Made by a program: the position numbers and the translations under genes. The notes under the pieces are model-generated. The model made no database searches. It saw only the letters and a list, made by a program, of their open reading frames with translations, and was not told the DNA's origin. Below are positions 4,403 through 48,492 of a stretch of DNA of 48,492 bases, piece by piece. Position 1 is the stretch's first letter. The number at the start of each line of letters is the position of its first letter. The stretch is from Treponema sp. (GTDB taxonomy: Bacteria; Spirochaetota; Spirochaetia; Treponematales; Treponemataceae): positions 1 through 48,492 of the forward strand of contig JAILEY010000036.1 of the NCBI GenBank assembly GCA_024687165.1, given 5' to 3'.

Positions 4403-6253
4403 TTATTCAACCGTAACGCTTTTTGCAAGATTTCTTGGTTTGTCCGGATCATTTCCTTTCAGAATTGCACAGTAATATGCAAAGAGCTGGGATGGAACTA
4501 TTGCAAGAAGTGATGCAAGTACGCTTGAACATTCAGGAATACAGAATACTTCATCAGCCTTTTCTGTAAAGAAGTCTTTTCCGTTTTCCTGTGTAATTGC
4601 AAGAACTGATGCACCACGGCTTTTAACCTCAACAATATTTGATCCGATTTTCTCATAGAGATCAGGATTTGTAGCAATAGCAACAACGAGTGTAGTTTTA
4701 TCTATAAGCGCAATTGGGCCATGTTTTAACTCTCCGGCTGCAAATGCTTCTGAGTGCATGTAACTTACTTCCTTTAGTTTTAGTGCACTTTCAAGACTTG
4801 AGGCACTATCGAACTGGCGGCCAATGTAGAAAACTTTACTTTTGTTGAACTGTCTGGATGCAAAACGCTGAATCGTTTCCTGTGAATTAAGAAGAGTTTC
4901 CATTTTATCAGGAAATGCTTCAAGTTCTTCAATAAGCTCAGTTGCTTTTTCTGTTGAAAGTACACCTCTTTCCATTCCTGCTTTAATTGCAAGAAGATAA
5001 AGACAGAGCATTTGTGTTGTATAAGCTTTTGTTGATGCAACGGAAATTTCAGGACCAGCCCAGGTATAAATTACTTCATCCGCTTCTCTGCTTATCGTTG
5101 AGCCGACGCAGTTTGTGATTGCAATTACCTTAAGGCCTTTTTCTTTTGCAAGACGCATTGCGCTTAATGTGTCTGCTGTTTCTCCAGACTGACTGATTAC
5201 GATAAAAATTTCATCCTTTGAAAGAATCGGATCTCGGTAACGGAATTCACTTGCAACATCAACTTCAACATTTAACCGCGCAAGCTTTTCAAATGCGTAT
5301 TTTGCAACAACACCTGCATGATAGGCAGTTCCACATGCTGTAATTACAATGCGTCCTGCTTTCTTCCATGCATCCCCTGAATTCATTTCTTTAAAGTTGA
5401 TTCCACAAATTTTTCCGTCTTTGTCTTTTAAAATTCTTGGGCGCATTGTGTCACGAAGTGCTTTTGGCTGCTCATGAATTTCTTTGAGCATGAAGTGCTG
5501 GAAGCCGCCCTTTTCTGCACTCTCCATGTCCCATTCAACATGGCTTGGTTCACGGATAATTTTGTTTCCATCAAAATCAAAAATATCAACGTGATCACAG
5601 TACAGTACAGCCATTTCTTTTTCATTGAGATAATGAACATCCCGTGTGTGCTCAAGGAGTGCCGGTACATCGCTTGCAACAAAATTTTCATTTTTTCCAA
5701 GTCCGATTACAAGCGGGCTTTCTTTTCTTGCAATGATAATTCTGTCCGGAAAATCTTTGCAGATTACTTCAAGTGCATAACTTCCATCAAGCTTTTTTAA
5801 TGTTGCTTTAACGGCTTCAAAAATATTTTTTGATTTTTCATAATTTGAATTTATCAGATGTGCAATTACTTCTGTATCCGTCTGGCTTCTGAAAACTATT
5901 CCTTCTGATTGAAGCTTGTCTTTTAATTCAGCATAGTTTTCAATGATTCCGTTGTGAACAACAGCAATTGTTCCGCTAACGTTTGTGTGAGGATGTGCAT
6001 TGATGTCGCTCGGCTCCCCATGAGTTGCCCAGCGTGTATGCCCTATTCCAACAGAGCCATTTATGATTTCATCTGCAACTTTTTCTTCAAGATATTTCAA
6101 AGCCCCTTTTGCTTTTCTGACGATTACACTCTCGTCATTTCCAAGAATTGCAATTCCTGAAGAATCATAACCTCTGTATTCAAGTTTTTTTAATGCATTT
6201 ATTAAAACTGGAGCGGCTTCTTTATATCCGCAGTAACCTACTATTCCACACAT
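4403..6253 (-). CDS. glmS: Glutamine-fructose-6-phosphate aminotransferase (isomerizing)
   Basis: Makes glucosamine-6-phosphate from fructose-6-phosphate and glutamine, the entry to peptidoglycan amino sugars. The N-terminal nucleophile hydrolase domain begins MCGIVGYCGY with catalytic Cys2, and the glutamine site is HTRWATHGEPS. Two SIS domains follow (ACGTAYHAG, SQSGETADT; later YIGRQFDSASSLESALKLKE), and the end PRNLAKSVTVE is the canonical C-terminus. The length of 616 residues is normal. GGAG precedes the ATG. The upstream spacer is only 69 bp and holds a promoter, with no room for a glmS ribozyme, so control by that route is unlikely here. Confidence 0.97.
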   Translation of the reverse strand: MCGIVGYCGYKEAAPVLINALKKLEYRGYDSSGIAILGNDESVIVRKAKGALKYLEEKVADEIINGSVGIGHTRWATHGEPSDINAHPHTNVSGTIAVVHNGIIENYAELKDKLQSEGIVFRSQTDTEVIAHLINSNYEKSKNIFEAVKATLKKLDGSYALEVICKDFPDRIIIARKESPLVIGLGKNENFVASDVPALLEHTRDVHYLNEKEMAVLYCDHVDIFDFDGNKIIREPSHVEWDMESAEKGGFQHFMLKEIHEQPKALRDTMRPRILKDKDGKICGINFKEMNSGDAWKKAGRIVITACGTAYHAGVVAKYAFEKLARLNVEVDVASEFRYRDPILSKDEIFIVISQSGETADTLSAMRLAKEKGLKVIAITNCVGSTISREADEVIYTWAGPEISVASTKAYTTQMLCLYLLAIKAGMERGVLSTEKATELIEELEAFPDKMETLLNSQETIQRFASRQFNKSKVFYIGRQFDSASSLESALKLKEVSYMHSEAFAAGELKHGPIALIDKTTLVVAIATNPDLYEKIGSNIVEVKSRGASVLAITQENGKDFFTEKADEVFCIPECSSVLASLLAIVPSQLFAYYCAILKGNDPDKPRNLAKSVTVE

Positions 6254-44805: not shown

Positions 44806-45509
44806 AAAAGTTCCTCCAGCTTTCTGCGGGGATTTCTTATGCTCCACTGCTCAAGATTTTCTTTTAATGCATTCTCTGCAGTATCATCAAATCTGATTTG
44901 ACCTTTATCAAGAACAATGAATCGGTCTGCAAGTGCAAGGCATTTTTCAATTTCATGAGTCAGAAGAATTACTGTCTTTTTTTCTTTTTTTAATTTTAAA
45001 AGAATTTCACACACACTTTTTATGCCAGGATAATCAAGGTTTGCAAAAGGTTCGTCAAAAATTATCAGTGAGCGGTTCATTGCAAGAATCCCTGCGAGAG
45101 AAAGCCGTCTTTTTTCTCCGCCACTCATTACACGTGTCATTGAATTTTTTTTGTGAAGAAGTCCAGTTTCACTCAGCGCATTTTCAACACAATCCTTCAG
45201 CTGCTGTTTTTTCATTCCAGAATTTCTTGCTCCAAAAGAAACATCCTCAAAAACAGTTTCACCAAGAATCTGACTGTCTGCATCCTGAAAGACAAGACCT
45301 GCAGCTGCATTTTTCAAAATGATTTTTCCATCACTTGGTTTATCCAGCTGTGCAATTAGTGTCATCAGAACGCTTTTCCCGGAGCCGTTGCTTCCTGCAA
45401 TAATCAGAAATTCTCCTTCATTGACTTTGAAAGAAACATCTTTAAGTGCCAGAGTTCCATCTGGAAATTTTTTTGAAACTTTTTCAACTGTTAAGATTGT
45501 GCTGTTCAT
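44796..45509 (-). CDS. bioM: Biotin ECF transporter ATP-binding subunit (BioM)
   Basis: 237 residues. Walker A GSNGSGKS near residue 40, Q-loop GLVFQDADSQIL, signature MSGGEKRR, Walker B SLIIFDEPFANLD, and H-loop LLTHEIEKC. The ECF-type Q-loop (FQDxDxQ) distinguishes it from ordinary ABC ATPases. It lies between bioY and bioN and powers biotin uptake. Confidence 0.94.
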   Translation of the reverse strand: MNSTILTVEKVSKKFPDGTLALKDVSFKVNEGEFLIIAGSNGSGKSVLMTLIAQLDKPSDGKIILKNAAAGLVFQDADSQILGETVFEDVSFGARNSGMKKQQLKDCVENALSETGLLHKKNSMTRVMSGGEKRRLSLAGILAMNRSLIIFDEPFANLDYPGIKSVCEILLKLKKEKKTVILLTHEIEKCLALADRFIVLDKGQIRFDDTAENALKENLEQWSIRNPRRKLEELLWL

Positions 45510-45516
45510 TATATTC

Positions 45517-46089
45517 TCATGCTTCGTAAAGATAATTTTTAATTACCGGGCGAAGATTTTTTGTGAGTATAACATTTATTGCTGTTTTAATCAGGTGGCA
45601 GGGAATAAAAGGAATAACACAGGCGGCCATTGCTTTTCCAATTCCACAGTTTGCAATTCGCATGAATTCAATTGTTCCGCAGGTAAAAAGAACTGTTGAT
45701 CCAAGAAGGCTTGCAGAAATAATTATAAGCCACTGTTTAAGAGCTTTATGGTTCTTTGATGGATTTAAAAAAAGATAAAGTACAAGTCCTGCCGTTACTG
45801 CACCAAGAAGATAGCCGATAAGAAATCCTCCTGTATATCCTTTTGTAATTACATGAAGCCCTGAGCTCCCTGAAAAAACAGGAAGTCCCATTATTCCTAA
45901 AAGAAGAAAAACAGCAACTGCAGCCCCTCCGTATACCGGCCCCAGAAGTAATCCGCTTAATAAAGCAAGGGCATCCTGCAATACAATCGGAACAAGTCCA
46001 GGCAGAGGAATTCTAAAAAAATATGCAACGCTGATCAGTGCTGCAAACAATGCTGTAAAAACAGCTCCGGCATTTTTTTTTGTTTTCAT
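45517..46089 (-). CDS. bioY: Biotin transporter substrate-binding subunit (BioY)
   Basis: 190 residues with six predicted helices. Motifs typical of BioY are RIPLPGLVPIVLQDALALLSGLLLGPVYGG and LPVFSGSSGLHVITKGYTGGFLIGYLLGA. It binds biotin with high affinity in the membrane. It lies 15 bp after birA and 7 bp before bioM in one direction. Confidence 0.95.
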   Translation of the reverse strand: MKTKKNAGAVFTALFAALISVAYFFRIPLPGLVPIVLQDALALLSGLLLGPVYGGAAVAVFLLLGIMGLPVFSGSSGLHVITKGYTGGFLIGYLLGAVTAGLVLYLFLNPSKNHKALKQWLIIISASLLGSTVLFTCGTIEFMRIANCGIGKAMAACVIPFIPCHLIKTAINVILTKNLRPVIKNYLYEA

Positions 46090-46104
46090 AAAAGATCTCC
46101 ATTT

Positions 46105-47040
46105 TTATTTTTTTATTCTGTCAATTCCGGGAATAAGAGTTATAAAATCTCCGTCATGATTTTTTAAAACTGCAAATCCCAGAGAATTGATTGAATCAAA
46201 TTCATAATTTATGCTGCTTCCTTTAGGAACAACATTTCTGTATTTATCAAAATTCAAGCTGTTCCATTTTGCGCATAATTCTTCATCTTTTTTTTCAGCG
46301 CTCTTACATTCACTTTCAAATCTGTCTGTAAAAACTGAAAGAATTTTTTTTCTCGTAATTTCTTTTCCTGCAATATCGGTTTTTGAGATGTCAGGTTTCT
46401 CGCAGAGATTTACACCGATTCCTATGTTGATCCAGTTTGTAATGCTTCCTGTAGAACTTACATCATCCAGTATGCCTGCAACTTTTCCTTTTTCAGTCCA
46501 GATATCGTTTGGCCATCTTACAAAAAAATCTTTATCAGAAATTGATGACAAAGATTCTGCAAGTGCAATCTGTGCGGCCATTACAATCCTGTGGCAGTAA
46601 GAAACAGAAATCTTTGGTCGAGTAATAAAAGTACATGCAAGACTTCCTTTTGTAGTATCCCATTTGTGGCCTGTGTGACCTTTCCCTTCTGTCTGAAAAT
46701 CCGCAGTAATTATTTTGATTTTAGAATCTGAATCAGAAGTTTCTGCAATTTTTTTTGCTTCGTTCATAGTGGAATCAACTGTTTCAAAATGAAAAAAAGA
46801 ATTTTCCTGTTTCCCGAATTCCCAGGGGAAAATACTGTCTGAAAGATCTTTTATTAGTTTGTAGCCTGAATGAGTGCTTTCAATTTCATAGCCGGAATTT
46901 TCAAGTGACTGAATTGATTTCCAGATGTTGACTCGGCTTGTTCCTGTAGCAAGTGCAATTTCCTGGCCGCTTACCGGTTCATTAGAATTTCTGAGGATTT
47001 CAAGAATCTTATTTTTAGTTGAAAGTGTTTTGTTAACCAT
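46105..47040 (-). CDS. birA: Bifunctional biotin operon repressor / biotin-protein ligase
   Basis: 311 residues. An N-terminal winged HTH (PVSGQEIALATGTSRVNIWKSIQSLENSGYEIE) is followed by the ligase domain: DSTMNEAKKIAE, biotin/ATP loop QTEGKGHTGHKWDTTKGSLACTF, RWPNDIWTEKGKVAGILDD, and IGIGVNL. The loop GKGHTGH differs from the usual GRGRRGR. It attaches biotin to carboxylases and represses biotin uptake genes. A BirA-type operator covers its own start codon. The start has no Shine-Dalgarno and a leader of about 0-4 nt. Confidence 0.94.
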   Translation of the reverse strand: MVNKTLSTKNKILEILRNSNEPVSGQEIALATGTSRVNIWKSIQSLENSGYEIESTHSGYKLIKDLSDSIFPWEFGKQENSFFHFETVDSTMNEAKKIAETSDSDSKIKIITADFQTEGKGHTGHKWDTTKGSLACTFITRPKISVSYCHRIVMAAQIALAESLSSISDKDFFVRWPNDIWTEKGKVAGILDDVSSTGSITNWINIGIGVNLCEKPDISKTDIAGKEITRKKILSVFTDRFESECKSAEKKDEELCAKWNSLNFDKYRNVVPKGSSINYEFDSINSLGFAVLKNHDGDFITLIPGIDRIKK

Positions 47041-47061
47041 TACGAATATTAAGTTAACGAA
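47029..47061. promoter_or_regulatory. BirA operator
   Basis: TTTGTTAAC (47029-47037), 15 bp, GTTAACGAA (47053-47061): arms match in 8 of 9 positions and fit the known TTGTTAAC-N14/15-GTTAACAA pattern. It spans the birA start codon and the -10 region, implying autorepression of birA-bioYMN. Confidence 0.8.
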
Positions 47062-47079
47062 TTTATTTTAATCGGTCAA
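47051..47079 (-). promoter_or_regulatory. birA-bioYMN promoter
   Basis: On the minus strand TTGACC (47074-47079), 17 bp, TAACTT (47051-47056). The -10 overlaps the BirA operator. Confidence 0.55.
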
Positions 47080-47118
47080 TACTTTCTGGAAATCACTTAT
47101 AAACTTTTGCTAACTTAT

Positions 47119-47147
47119 TTGATTTCAACTTAATTTTATGATAGATT
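47119..47147 (+). promoter_or_regulatory. Promoter of the aldolase-like gene
   Basis: TTGATT (47119-47124), 17 bp, TAGATT (47142-47147); the leader of about 31 nt contains AGAGGTAA before the ATG at 47185. Confidence 0.55.
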
Positions 47148-47184
47148 AGGATATCAAATTAATACAAATCTCAGAGGTAATGTT

Positions 47185-48156
47185 ATGAAAGAAGTAAAAG
47201 GTCTTATGGATTTTAGACCAGGAATTAAAGTTGTTGATGCTACATTAAGAGACGGTGGTCTTGTAAATGATTTTTATTTTACTGATGAATTTGTAAAAGC
47301 TCTTTATCAGACAAATGTTAAAGCCGGTGTTGATTATATGGAATTCGGTTACAAGGCAGATAAAGAACAGTTTGATAAAAATAAATTTGGAAAATGGAAG
47401 TTCTGCAATGATGATGATATTTTCAATGTTGTCGGAGAAAATGAAAATGGTCCAAAGGTAGCAGTAATGGCTGATGTTGGACGCTGTAATTACAAAGAAG
47501 ATATTCACGAAAAATCAGAAAGTCCGGTTGATCTCATACGGGTTGCAACATACCTCAATACAATTCCTTCTGCAATCGATATGATTGAAGATTCAAAAAA
47601 GAAAGGTTATGAAGTAAGCTGCAACATCATGGCAATTTCAACAAGTCAGGAAAGCGATGTAAAAGTTGCTCTCGACCTTCTTGGAGAATCTCCTGTTGAT
47701 GTTATTTATATTGTAGACAGTTACGGTTCGATTTATCCTGAACAGATGGCACGTATTGCAGATGTATATTGTGAAGCTGGTGCAAAATACGGAAAGAAAA
47801 TTGGAATCCACGCACACAATAATCTTCAGCTTGCGTTTGCAAATACAATTGAATGTTGTGGTGATGGAGTTGATTATCTTGATGCAACTTATGGTGAAAT
47901 GGGACGAGGGGCCGGAAACTGTGCAATGGAACTTTTACTTGGTTTCCTTAAAAATCCTAAGTACTCACTCCACCCTGTTATTCAGTTCCTTGACGAACAT
48001 GTTAAAGGACTTAAAAAGGAAAGCACCTGGGGATATGATCTTCAGTACATGCTTACAGGACAGTTGAATCAGCATCCTCGCAGTGCAATTGCATTTACAA
48101 AAGATAAGAGAAGCGACTACTACGAATTTTACAAACAGATTCGTGCAGATGAATAG
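47185..48156 (+). CDS. DRE-TIM metallolyase (HMGL-like aldolase) family protein
   Basis: 323 residues with a TIM-barrel of the HMG-CoA lyase/isopropylmalate synthase superfamily. Metal site motifs: VDATLRDGG near residue 18 (DxTLRDG) and GIHAHNN (HxH) near residue 209; GEMGRGAGN is the usual glycine motif. It resembles the 4-hydroxy-2-oxovalerate aldolase-like group. The substrate is unknown; proteins of this type are found in polysaccharide and anaerobe gene clusters. It stands alone here between the divergent biotin operon and carB. Confidence 0.82.
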   Translation: MKEVKGLMDFRPGIKVVDATLRDGGLVNDFYFTDEFVKALYQTNVKAGVDYMEFGYKADKEQFDKNKFGKWKFCNDDDIFNVVGENENGPKVAVMADVGRCNYKEDIHEKSESPVDLIRVATYLNTIPSAIDMIEDSKKKGYEVSCNIMAISTSQESDVKVALDLLGESPVDVIYIVDSYGSIYPEQMARIADVYCEAGAKYGKKIGIHAHNNLQLAFANTIECCGDGVDYLDATYGEMGRGAGNCAMELLLGFLKNPKYSLHPVIQFLDEHVKGLKKESTWGYDLQYMLTGQLNQHPRSAIAFTKDKRSDYYEFYKQIRADE

Positions 48157-48185
48157 AATTTTTTCATACTTTGTAAAGAATCTGC

Positions 48186-48214
48186 TTGAACAAAAAAATG
48201 TATCTGTGTATAAT
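48186..48214 (+). promoter_or_regulatory. Promoter of a short transcription unit
   Basis: TTGAAC (48186-48191), exactly 17 bp, TATAAT (48209-48214), giving a start near 48221-48223. Confidence 0.7.
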
Positions 48215-48225
48215 GCTCTTTCAGT

Positions 48226-48294
48226 ATGAATCACAGAAACTTGGAAAAACAGCTTCTAATTATTACTGAAAAATTCGCATTTTGTATATTTTAA
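48226..48294 (+). CDS. Possible 22-residue leader peptide or small protein
   Basis: An ATG 11 nt after a strong TATAAT opens a 22-codon frame ending TAA at 48292-48294, exactly where the stem of the following terminator begins. The peptide is MNHRNLEKQLLIITEKFAFCIF. It has no run of a regulatory amino acid and no Shine-Dalgarno. It could be a leader peptide of an attenuator for carB, a small membrane peptide, or chance within a small RNA. Confidence 0.35.
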   Translation: MNHRNLEKQLLIITEKFAFCIF

Positions 48295-48331
48295 ACTGAA
48301 TTCGTTATTTTGACGGATTCAGTTTTTTTTT
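48293..48331 (+). terminator. Terminator of the short unit upstream of carB
   Basis: AAACTGAAT (48293-48301) and ATTCAGTTT (48317-48325) with nine Ts (48323-48331). Together with the promoter at 48186-48214 it defines a transcript of about 110 nt. Confidence 0.75.
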
Positions 48332-48355
48332 GTTTCATCGAAACATGTATATAAT
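48331..48355 (+). promoter_or_regulatory. Inverted repeat and -10 upstream of carB
   Basis: Perfect palindrome TGTTTC-ATC-GAAACA (48331-48345) followed by TATAAT (48350-48355). There is no good -35; the palindrome occupies that region and could be an operator. Confidence 0.45.
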
Positions 48356-48374
48356 TTTTTTTAGGGGTATAAAT

Positions 48375-48492
48375 ATGGCAAAGAGAAAAGACATTGATAA
48401 GGTTCTTATTATTGGTTCGGGCCCGATTGTTATTGGTCAGGCTTGTGAGTTCGACTATTCGGGAACTCAGGCTTGTAAGGCTTTGCGCGAAC
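48375..48492 (+). CDS. carB: Carbamoyl-phosphate synthase large subunit (partial)
   Basis: The 39 codons in the window read [21 protein letters not shown] then [17 protein letters not shown], the canonical CarB N-terminus with the ATP-grasp preceding motif. The gene continues beyond the edge. AGGGG lies ahead of the ATG. CarB makes carbamoyl phosphate for arginine and pyrimidines. Confidence 0.95.

Follow-up and report, generated by a model that had tools for sequence, protein, structure and literature searches.

Ahead of carB in this Treponema genome stand a promoter, a short leader open reading frame (ORF) and an intrinsic terminator, a unit that comparison with relatives confirms to be real and conserved. 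Judging from its sequence, it probably attenuates the transcription of carbamoyl-phosphate synthase genes in cis, through ribosome coupling. The unit lies at the far end of the window (the whole 48,492-nt stretch of DNA that was analysed), where a contig of the 2.38-Mb assembly ends and interrupts carB, and it comprises the following features.

48186-48214, + strand: promoter (-35 TTGAAC at 48186-48191, -10 TATAAT at 48209-48214)
48221-48223, + strand: putative transcription start, placed from the position of the -10, 3-5 nt 5' of the leader AUG
48221-48269, + strand: predicted start-codon helix, 48221-48226 (UCAGUA) with 48264-48269 (UACUGA), from the minimum free energy (MFE) fold and a duplex test
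48226-48294, + strand: leader ORF of 22 codons, from the ATG at 48226 to a TAA; sequence MNHRNLEKQLLIITEKFAFCIF
48293-48331, + strand: intrinsic terminator, a stem-loop (48293-48325) followed by a T run
48363-48367, + strand: likely Shine-Dalgarno sequence of carB (AGGGG), read from the sequence
48375-48492, + strand: carB, cut at the contig end, from a protein-level match

The promoter (TTGAAC-17-TATAAT) has a consensus match of 10/12, and the hexamers of relatives that align with it are TAGAAT/TAGCAT and TGATATAGT-like. Promoter and terminator frame about 110 nt, as the initial annotation had described, and the leader stop codon (48292-48294) contacts the terminator stem, which bears out its remark that the two touch. 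When sites are simply scanned for in 45000-48492, their numbers are near chance, with 12 promoter-like sites against an expected 10.2 +/- 3.4 and 4 terminator-like sites against 2.5 +/- 1.8. The fold of the predicted transcript (48221-48334) beats 200 of 200 shuffles (z -4.3), and the 39 residues from 48375 onward belong to a carbamoyl-phosphate synthase large chain (PF25596, E 2.2e-14). The same annotation gave carB a -10 of its own; a TATAAT is indeed present on the + strand at 48350-48355, but the scan lists no + strand promoter with it, and we regard it as a weak second -10 that may be used.

Distribution of the element and the genes behind it

A search at the DNA level gave matches in 24 of 39 genomes, the own genome among them, and most of these fell on the start of carB. 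Upstream of it, same-genus loci keep one order: an extended -10 comes first, then a start codon within CAGTATGAAA; the short ORF has ATTCTCAA midway and often finishes with GTTCATACTATTTTTATTTGA; a terminator comes last. For a first covariance model 18 elements were aligned; it matched, at E <= 0.001, 124 of the 200 same-genus genomes searched, again with the own genome included. A second, built from 69 elements, matched 148 of the 200 at E <= 0.1, although many of these matches are weak and may be chance. Across the order, 86 of 390 genomes match at E <= 0.01, and they come from 4 of 91 genera, all within one family. The own genome holds one convincing copy, the next best match having an E value of 0.4. 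Promoter, ORF and hairpin, on whose conservation in relatives the initial annotation had staked its reading, are thus all conserved, and the reading survives.

Behind 139 elements we find carB, a carB-dapF fusion or carA in 128 cases and glmS in one, with ten unassigned (four at contig ends, six before other DNA). The assigned genes divide into 111 carB1 (the type in the window), 12 carB2, whose product joins CarB and diaminopimelate epimerase in one protein (about 1410 residues in L150, where it has 1408, and in L175, on which the Pfam domains were read), 5 carA and the one glmS, which counts against an attenuator of car genes. These counts describe a table selected by hand from three model searches. 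Omitted from it were L016 (before carB1), L157 (before carB2), L159, L160 (before glmS, leader ORF cut short), L163, L167, both copies in L161 (leader identical to that of L162), L170 (contig end), L173, the weak places in L151, G138 as a whole, and the weaker matches other than G147, G280 and G329, which were retained.

Several neighbouring observations concern the surroundings of the element. At L178:1170-1327 and L160:1472-1559, glmS directly follows the element, whole or shortened; by eye, no such leader is visible at the window's own glmS. One contig carries two copies (L161:1578-1729 and 5697-5848) whose leaders encode an identical peptide, and L158, L168 and L176 likewise have two copies per contig. 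Such double copies are 2-8 kb apart, with KilA-N-like and lipoprotein-like ORFs in the intervening DNA, and the carB leader may be a recurrent site of insertion or duplication. A weaker element-like unit (46.7 bits) lies on the - strand at L163:133-284, and the ORF behind it is not car-like. Upstream of the unit in the window, the neighbouring gene (47185-48156) is HMGL-like; the best 80 of 290 records for it are headed by Treponema/Spirochaetales, followed mostly by Lachnospiraceae and other Clostridia, the latter at 70-75% identity among the matches listed, and it may have been transferred between Treponema and Clostridia. On these labels we take the organism for a Treponema-like spirochaete of the gut. 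We also considered whether the promoter marks a wider regulon and rejected the idea: the pattern CTAGMAYAAAN{9,13}YTGATA occurs once each in 7 of 59 genomes, 7 of 7 times at car elements, and its reversed control gives 2 matches.

Genomes without the element offer a comparison. Fifteen were picked by hand from among those with no match to the first model, four of which (G048, G049, G074 and G166) give weak matches to the second (E 0.006-0.05). All 15 lack carB1, so the element and carB1 go together. Each has a single carB of the carB2 type (68-84% to carB2, 43-48% to carB1), with carA immediately upstream in 10 of the 15. Because carA has a near-leaderless start and no leader ORF in 7 of the 15, the attenuator appears dispensable in the genus. 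In L281, L282, L284 and L289, carA opens with TTTTAGTATGA, 11 nt past the -10 as leader ORFs do, an arrangement that points to near-leaderless starts as an ancient feature of car genes. Two of the 15 have attenuator-like arrangements: in L288 a short ORF flanked by promoter and terminator lies ahead of carA, and in L294 a terminator follows a -10 almost immediately ahead of carB2. L160 (before glmS) shows the same close succession of -10 and terminator, and in both L294 and L160 there is little or no leader ORF.

The distance from the end of the model or terminator to the start codon is 20 nt or less in 19 of 129 cases and 35 nt or less in 47, leaving hardly any room for a promoter behind the terminator, and the terminator often sits directly before the Shine-Dalgarno sequence of the gene. 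In the other 82 of 129 the gap exceeds 35 nt and reaches up to 1199 nt, which counts against an attenuator, as a further promoter is possible there. The gaps were extrapolated from protein alignments and carry an error of about a codon (for the window, 46 nt tabulated and 43 by eye).

Leader frame and RNA structure

The leader ATG is identical in all 69 elements of the larger alignment; in 67 of them the ORF has 13-32 codons and its end lies between -8 and +11 nt of the stem, and in the other two it extends past the terminator. Of the 139 elements, 135 were scorable and 4 were left unscored. All 135 have the ATG frame open up to the terminator stem, which holds for 3 and 14 elements in the two alternative frames. 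The stop is no more than 12 nt away from the stem in 126 (0 and 5 in the alternative frames); the conserved frame is thus placed for a ribosome effect on the terminator, as in attenuators. In 57 divergent representatives the frame is open in all 57 (mean 11.5 and maximum 24 over 2000 shuffles) and the stop window holds in 51 (shuffle mean 5.6, maximum 16). Because a string-similarity cut at 0.75, and no tree, was used to choose these representatives, they fall short of full independence. The leader frame is, on this comparative evidence, under selection. Between clades the peptide sequence is poorly conserved, but where the ORF starts and stops and how long it is are maintained; its position and its translation thus seem to count for more than the peptide made. 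The ATG lies 11 nt past the -10 in 88 of 135 elements, so the predicted 5' untranslated region would be only a few nucleotides long.

The composition of the leaders is uneven. Over the 57 representatives, T makes up 54% of the last 30 nt before the stem versus 29% elsewhere in the ORF. Relative to the genes of the window, the leaders are depleted in arginine (0.53-fold) and enriched in cysteine (2.8-fold) and histidine (2.3-fold), and no run of a single control amino acid or codon was seen in them. A further motif, UUCUC, is carried by 90 of 135 elements and by 28 of the 57 representatives, and in 87 of the 90 it lies 31 nt past the A of the leader ATG. As a rule it places CTC in frame at codon 12, where 30 of 31 leucines are encoded by CTC, against 9.7% of leucine codons in the ORFs of the window; the window itself carries CTTCTAAT at this place. 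Pairing between UUCUC and the Shine-Dalgarno sequence of the gene has a mean rank of 0.09 over 11 cases, although any CUC complements GGAG anyway.

Two structures are predicted by RNAalifold on the 18 sequences: one is the terminator, the other a helix, AGUAUGAA:UUCAUACU, in which the start codon would be buried; the window's start-codon helix is a shifted register of it. The terminator helix is conserved with compensatory changes in the 18-sequence alignment, and the model builder retained it alone from the 69 sequences. In those 69, 87.4% of cells pair in the start-codon helix versus 85.8% in shuffles, while slid versions reach 29-64%. Ten cells are changed on both sides, which 0 of 500 shuffles reach, and four pairs show a both-side change, which 31 of 500 shuffles reach. 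A scan of all column pairs gives an excess of 1.77 and 0.97 for the terminator and 0.23 for the start helix; the next rows (0.20 and 0.16) are weak and contact the terminator arms, and no antiterminator or alternative helix competing with the terminator stood out. In a duplex test the start helix reaches p < 0.05 in 20 of 57 representatives versus 1 of 57 for a control segment, and 7 of the 34 representatives lacking UUCAU do so, including the window (p 0.03, in the shifted register). The start-codon helix is therefore common but not universal, and has moderate support. A hairpin at the 5' end whose loop would hold the AUG was rejected as a candidate: it can be drawn in 40 of 57 representatives, but shuffles average 33.5 and reach 40. 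Rfam 15 gives no match at the gathering score in the window or in 8 relatives, and a permissive search of 48100-48492 returns five matches, all far under the gathering score.

Attenuator reading and its alternatives

Comparison of the sequences shows conservation of the promoter, the ORF frame, the stop-to-stem spacing, the U-rich tract, the terminator and the association with car genes. As in attenuators generally, a short ORF lies between a promoter and an intrinsic terminator ahead of a gene. From this arrangement we infer that transcription would start a few nucleotides 5' of the leader AUG, that the leader would be translated and that read-through would occur. A ribosome close behind RNA polymerase would come to the stop codon beside the terminator and cover its 5' arm, and the polymerase would read through into carB; with a ribosome lagging or never loaded, the terminator would fold, and transcription would end in an RNA of about 110 nt. 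Many members could pair the start codon with the end of the ORF, in which case late ribosomes could not load. The sensor would be the speed of the polymerase on the U-rich tract before the terminator, a feature shared with attenuators of the pyrBI type, which would make low UTP the most likely inducing signal. The pyrBI attenuator of Escherichia coli senses UTP. A tract of 54% T would suit a UTP-dependent pause, and from it we rate UTP as the signal at about even chances.

An E. coli reporter described in PMC4824070 is instructive here: termination falls from about 90% to under 10% when the stop codon, at first 28 bp ahead of the terminator, is shifted to only 5 bp ahead of it. The same paper holds that a ribosome has little chance of catching up with the polymerase over the first 100 bp unless the two are coupled by pausing, so a pause would be needed in this leader. 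The attenuator could perhaps go further and work as a kinetic one-shot switch, an idea that we offer tentatively and with some doubt, in which the AUG at the extreme 5' end would load a ribosome only before UUCAUACU has been made and the U-rich tract left. A slow polymerase (low UTP) would keep the start open, and a ribosome would load and couple, with expression of carB; behind a fast polymerase the start would close for good, followed by termination. If this is true, a start-closing timer would operate within the attenuators of several car genes, and in one case of glmS, in this spirochaete family.

The initial annotation left attenuator, independent small RNA and small-peptide gene unranked. 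The attenuator draws support from the car association, the ORF frame, the stop spacing and the nearness of the terminator to the Shine-Dalgarno sequence; the other two are unneeded, and a separate small RNA or peptide gene is less likely. In the nearest competitor the leader-peptide attenuator stays but responds to an amino acid, be it arginine or a different one, for which ribosomes would pause at codons of the leader. Arginine synthesis draws on carbamoyl phosphate too, and the own genome has both pyrB and argF, which leaves room for an arginine signal; the enrichment of cysteine and histidine and the less-used CTC at codon 12 could likewise be read this way. We nevertheless consider such a signal unlikely: leaders of the trp/his type would carry a run of control codons, which these lack, and arginine is depleted, no antiterminator pairing stood out, and pairing with the AUG accounts for the histidine codon CAU.

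That promoter and terminator frame about 110 nt would equally suit a trans-acting small RNA gene standing beside carB by descent, and P32, a small RNA of such kind, precedes carAB in Pseudomonas according to the part of PMC4997734 that deals with it. A car gene nevertheless follows 128 of 139 elements at different genome loci, the element often abuts that gene, and a small RNA has no need of the frame kept in every scored element; we therefore think this reading improbable, although the terminated product might also act in trans. A riboswitch or regulatory-protein site for which translation is not needed could explain two RNA-level features, the start helix and the fixed position of UUCUC, and a structured carA motif is described for Polynucleobacter in the relevant part of PMC8632094. 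The chances of such a site seem slim, given the open frame throughout, the lack of an Rfam match at gathering score and of a conserved aptamer-like helix set. Least credible of all is a free-standing gene for a small peptide with a function of its own; its ORF is open from a conserved ATG, but what is kept between clades is start, stop place and length rather than sequence.

Relation to known leaders and significance

The coupled attenuator that we favour is a variation on already known leader-peptide attenuation. The carAB operon of Pseudomonas aeruginosa, in the account given in the relevant part of PMC4997734, is served by a single promoter upstream and has a leader peptide; its response to pyrimidines depends on a stem-loop, and a small RNA arises from the leader; a 1994 title on the carAB leader cited there has it that no untranslated region exists. 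The Treponema element resembles this leader in its carbamoyl-phosphate synthase genes, putative leader peptide and stem-loop, but belongs to a different phylum, has no sequence relation to it that we saw and precedes mostly carB rather than carA; its start-codon helix and UUCUC are absent from that account of carAB. With E. coli pyrBI, where passages in PMC4824070 and PMC5021804 describe a coupled ribosome that suppresses termination, it shares a short leader peptide (pyrL in E. coli, predicted in Treponema), a U-rich tract and a terminator, and tight coupling across pyrL is needed there (PMC5021804, same passage). However, pyrBI serves aspartate carbamoyltransferase and the Treponema element carbamoyl-phosphate synthase genes. 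The pyrBI terminator is described as lying within the 135-bp leader gene (PMC4824070), whereas the stop codon of the Treponema element is at the stem, and the start a few nucleotides from the predicted RNA end and the start-codon helix set the element apart as well. PyrR-dependent attenuators of Gram-positive bacteria also precede pyrimidine genes, including Lactococcus carB (part of PMC10986495), but they bind PyrR, use an antiterminator and need no leader peptide, and no antiterminator stood out here. The Polynucleobacter carA motif (SRC-12-1), likewise an RNA element, immediately precedes a carbamoyl-phosphate synthase gene and has a promoter on its upstream side only; it differs, by its description in part of PMC8632094, in being an extended imperfect hairpin and a proposed riboswitch. 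In open-licence full texts we found no spirochaete attenuator of such kind described.

With more than 100 natural variants, an AUG a few nucleotides from the predicted RNA start and a fixed spacing between stop and terminator, the element would make coupling testable in this group. Most likely the switch would set the amount of carbamoyl-phosphate synthase by how closely ribosomes follow RNA polymerase, and we propose it as a regulator of carbamoyl-phosphate supply in gut Treponema.
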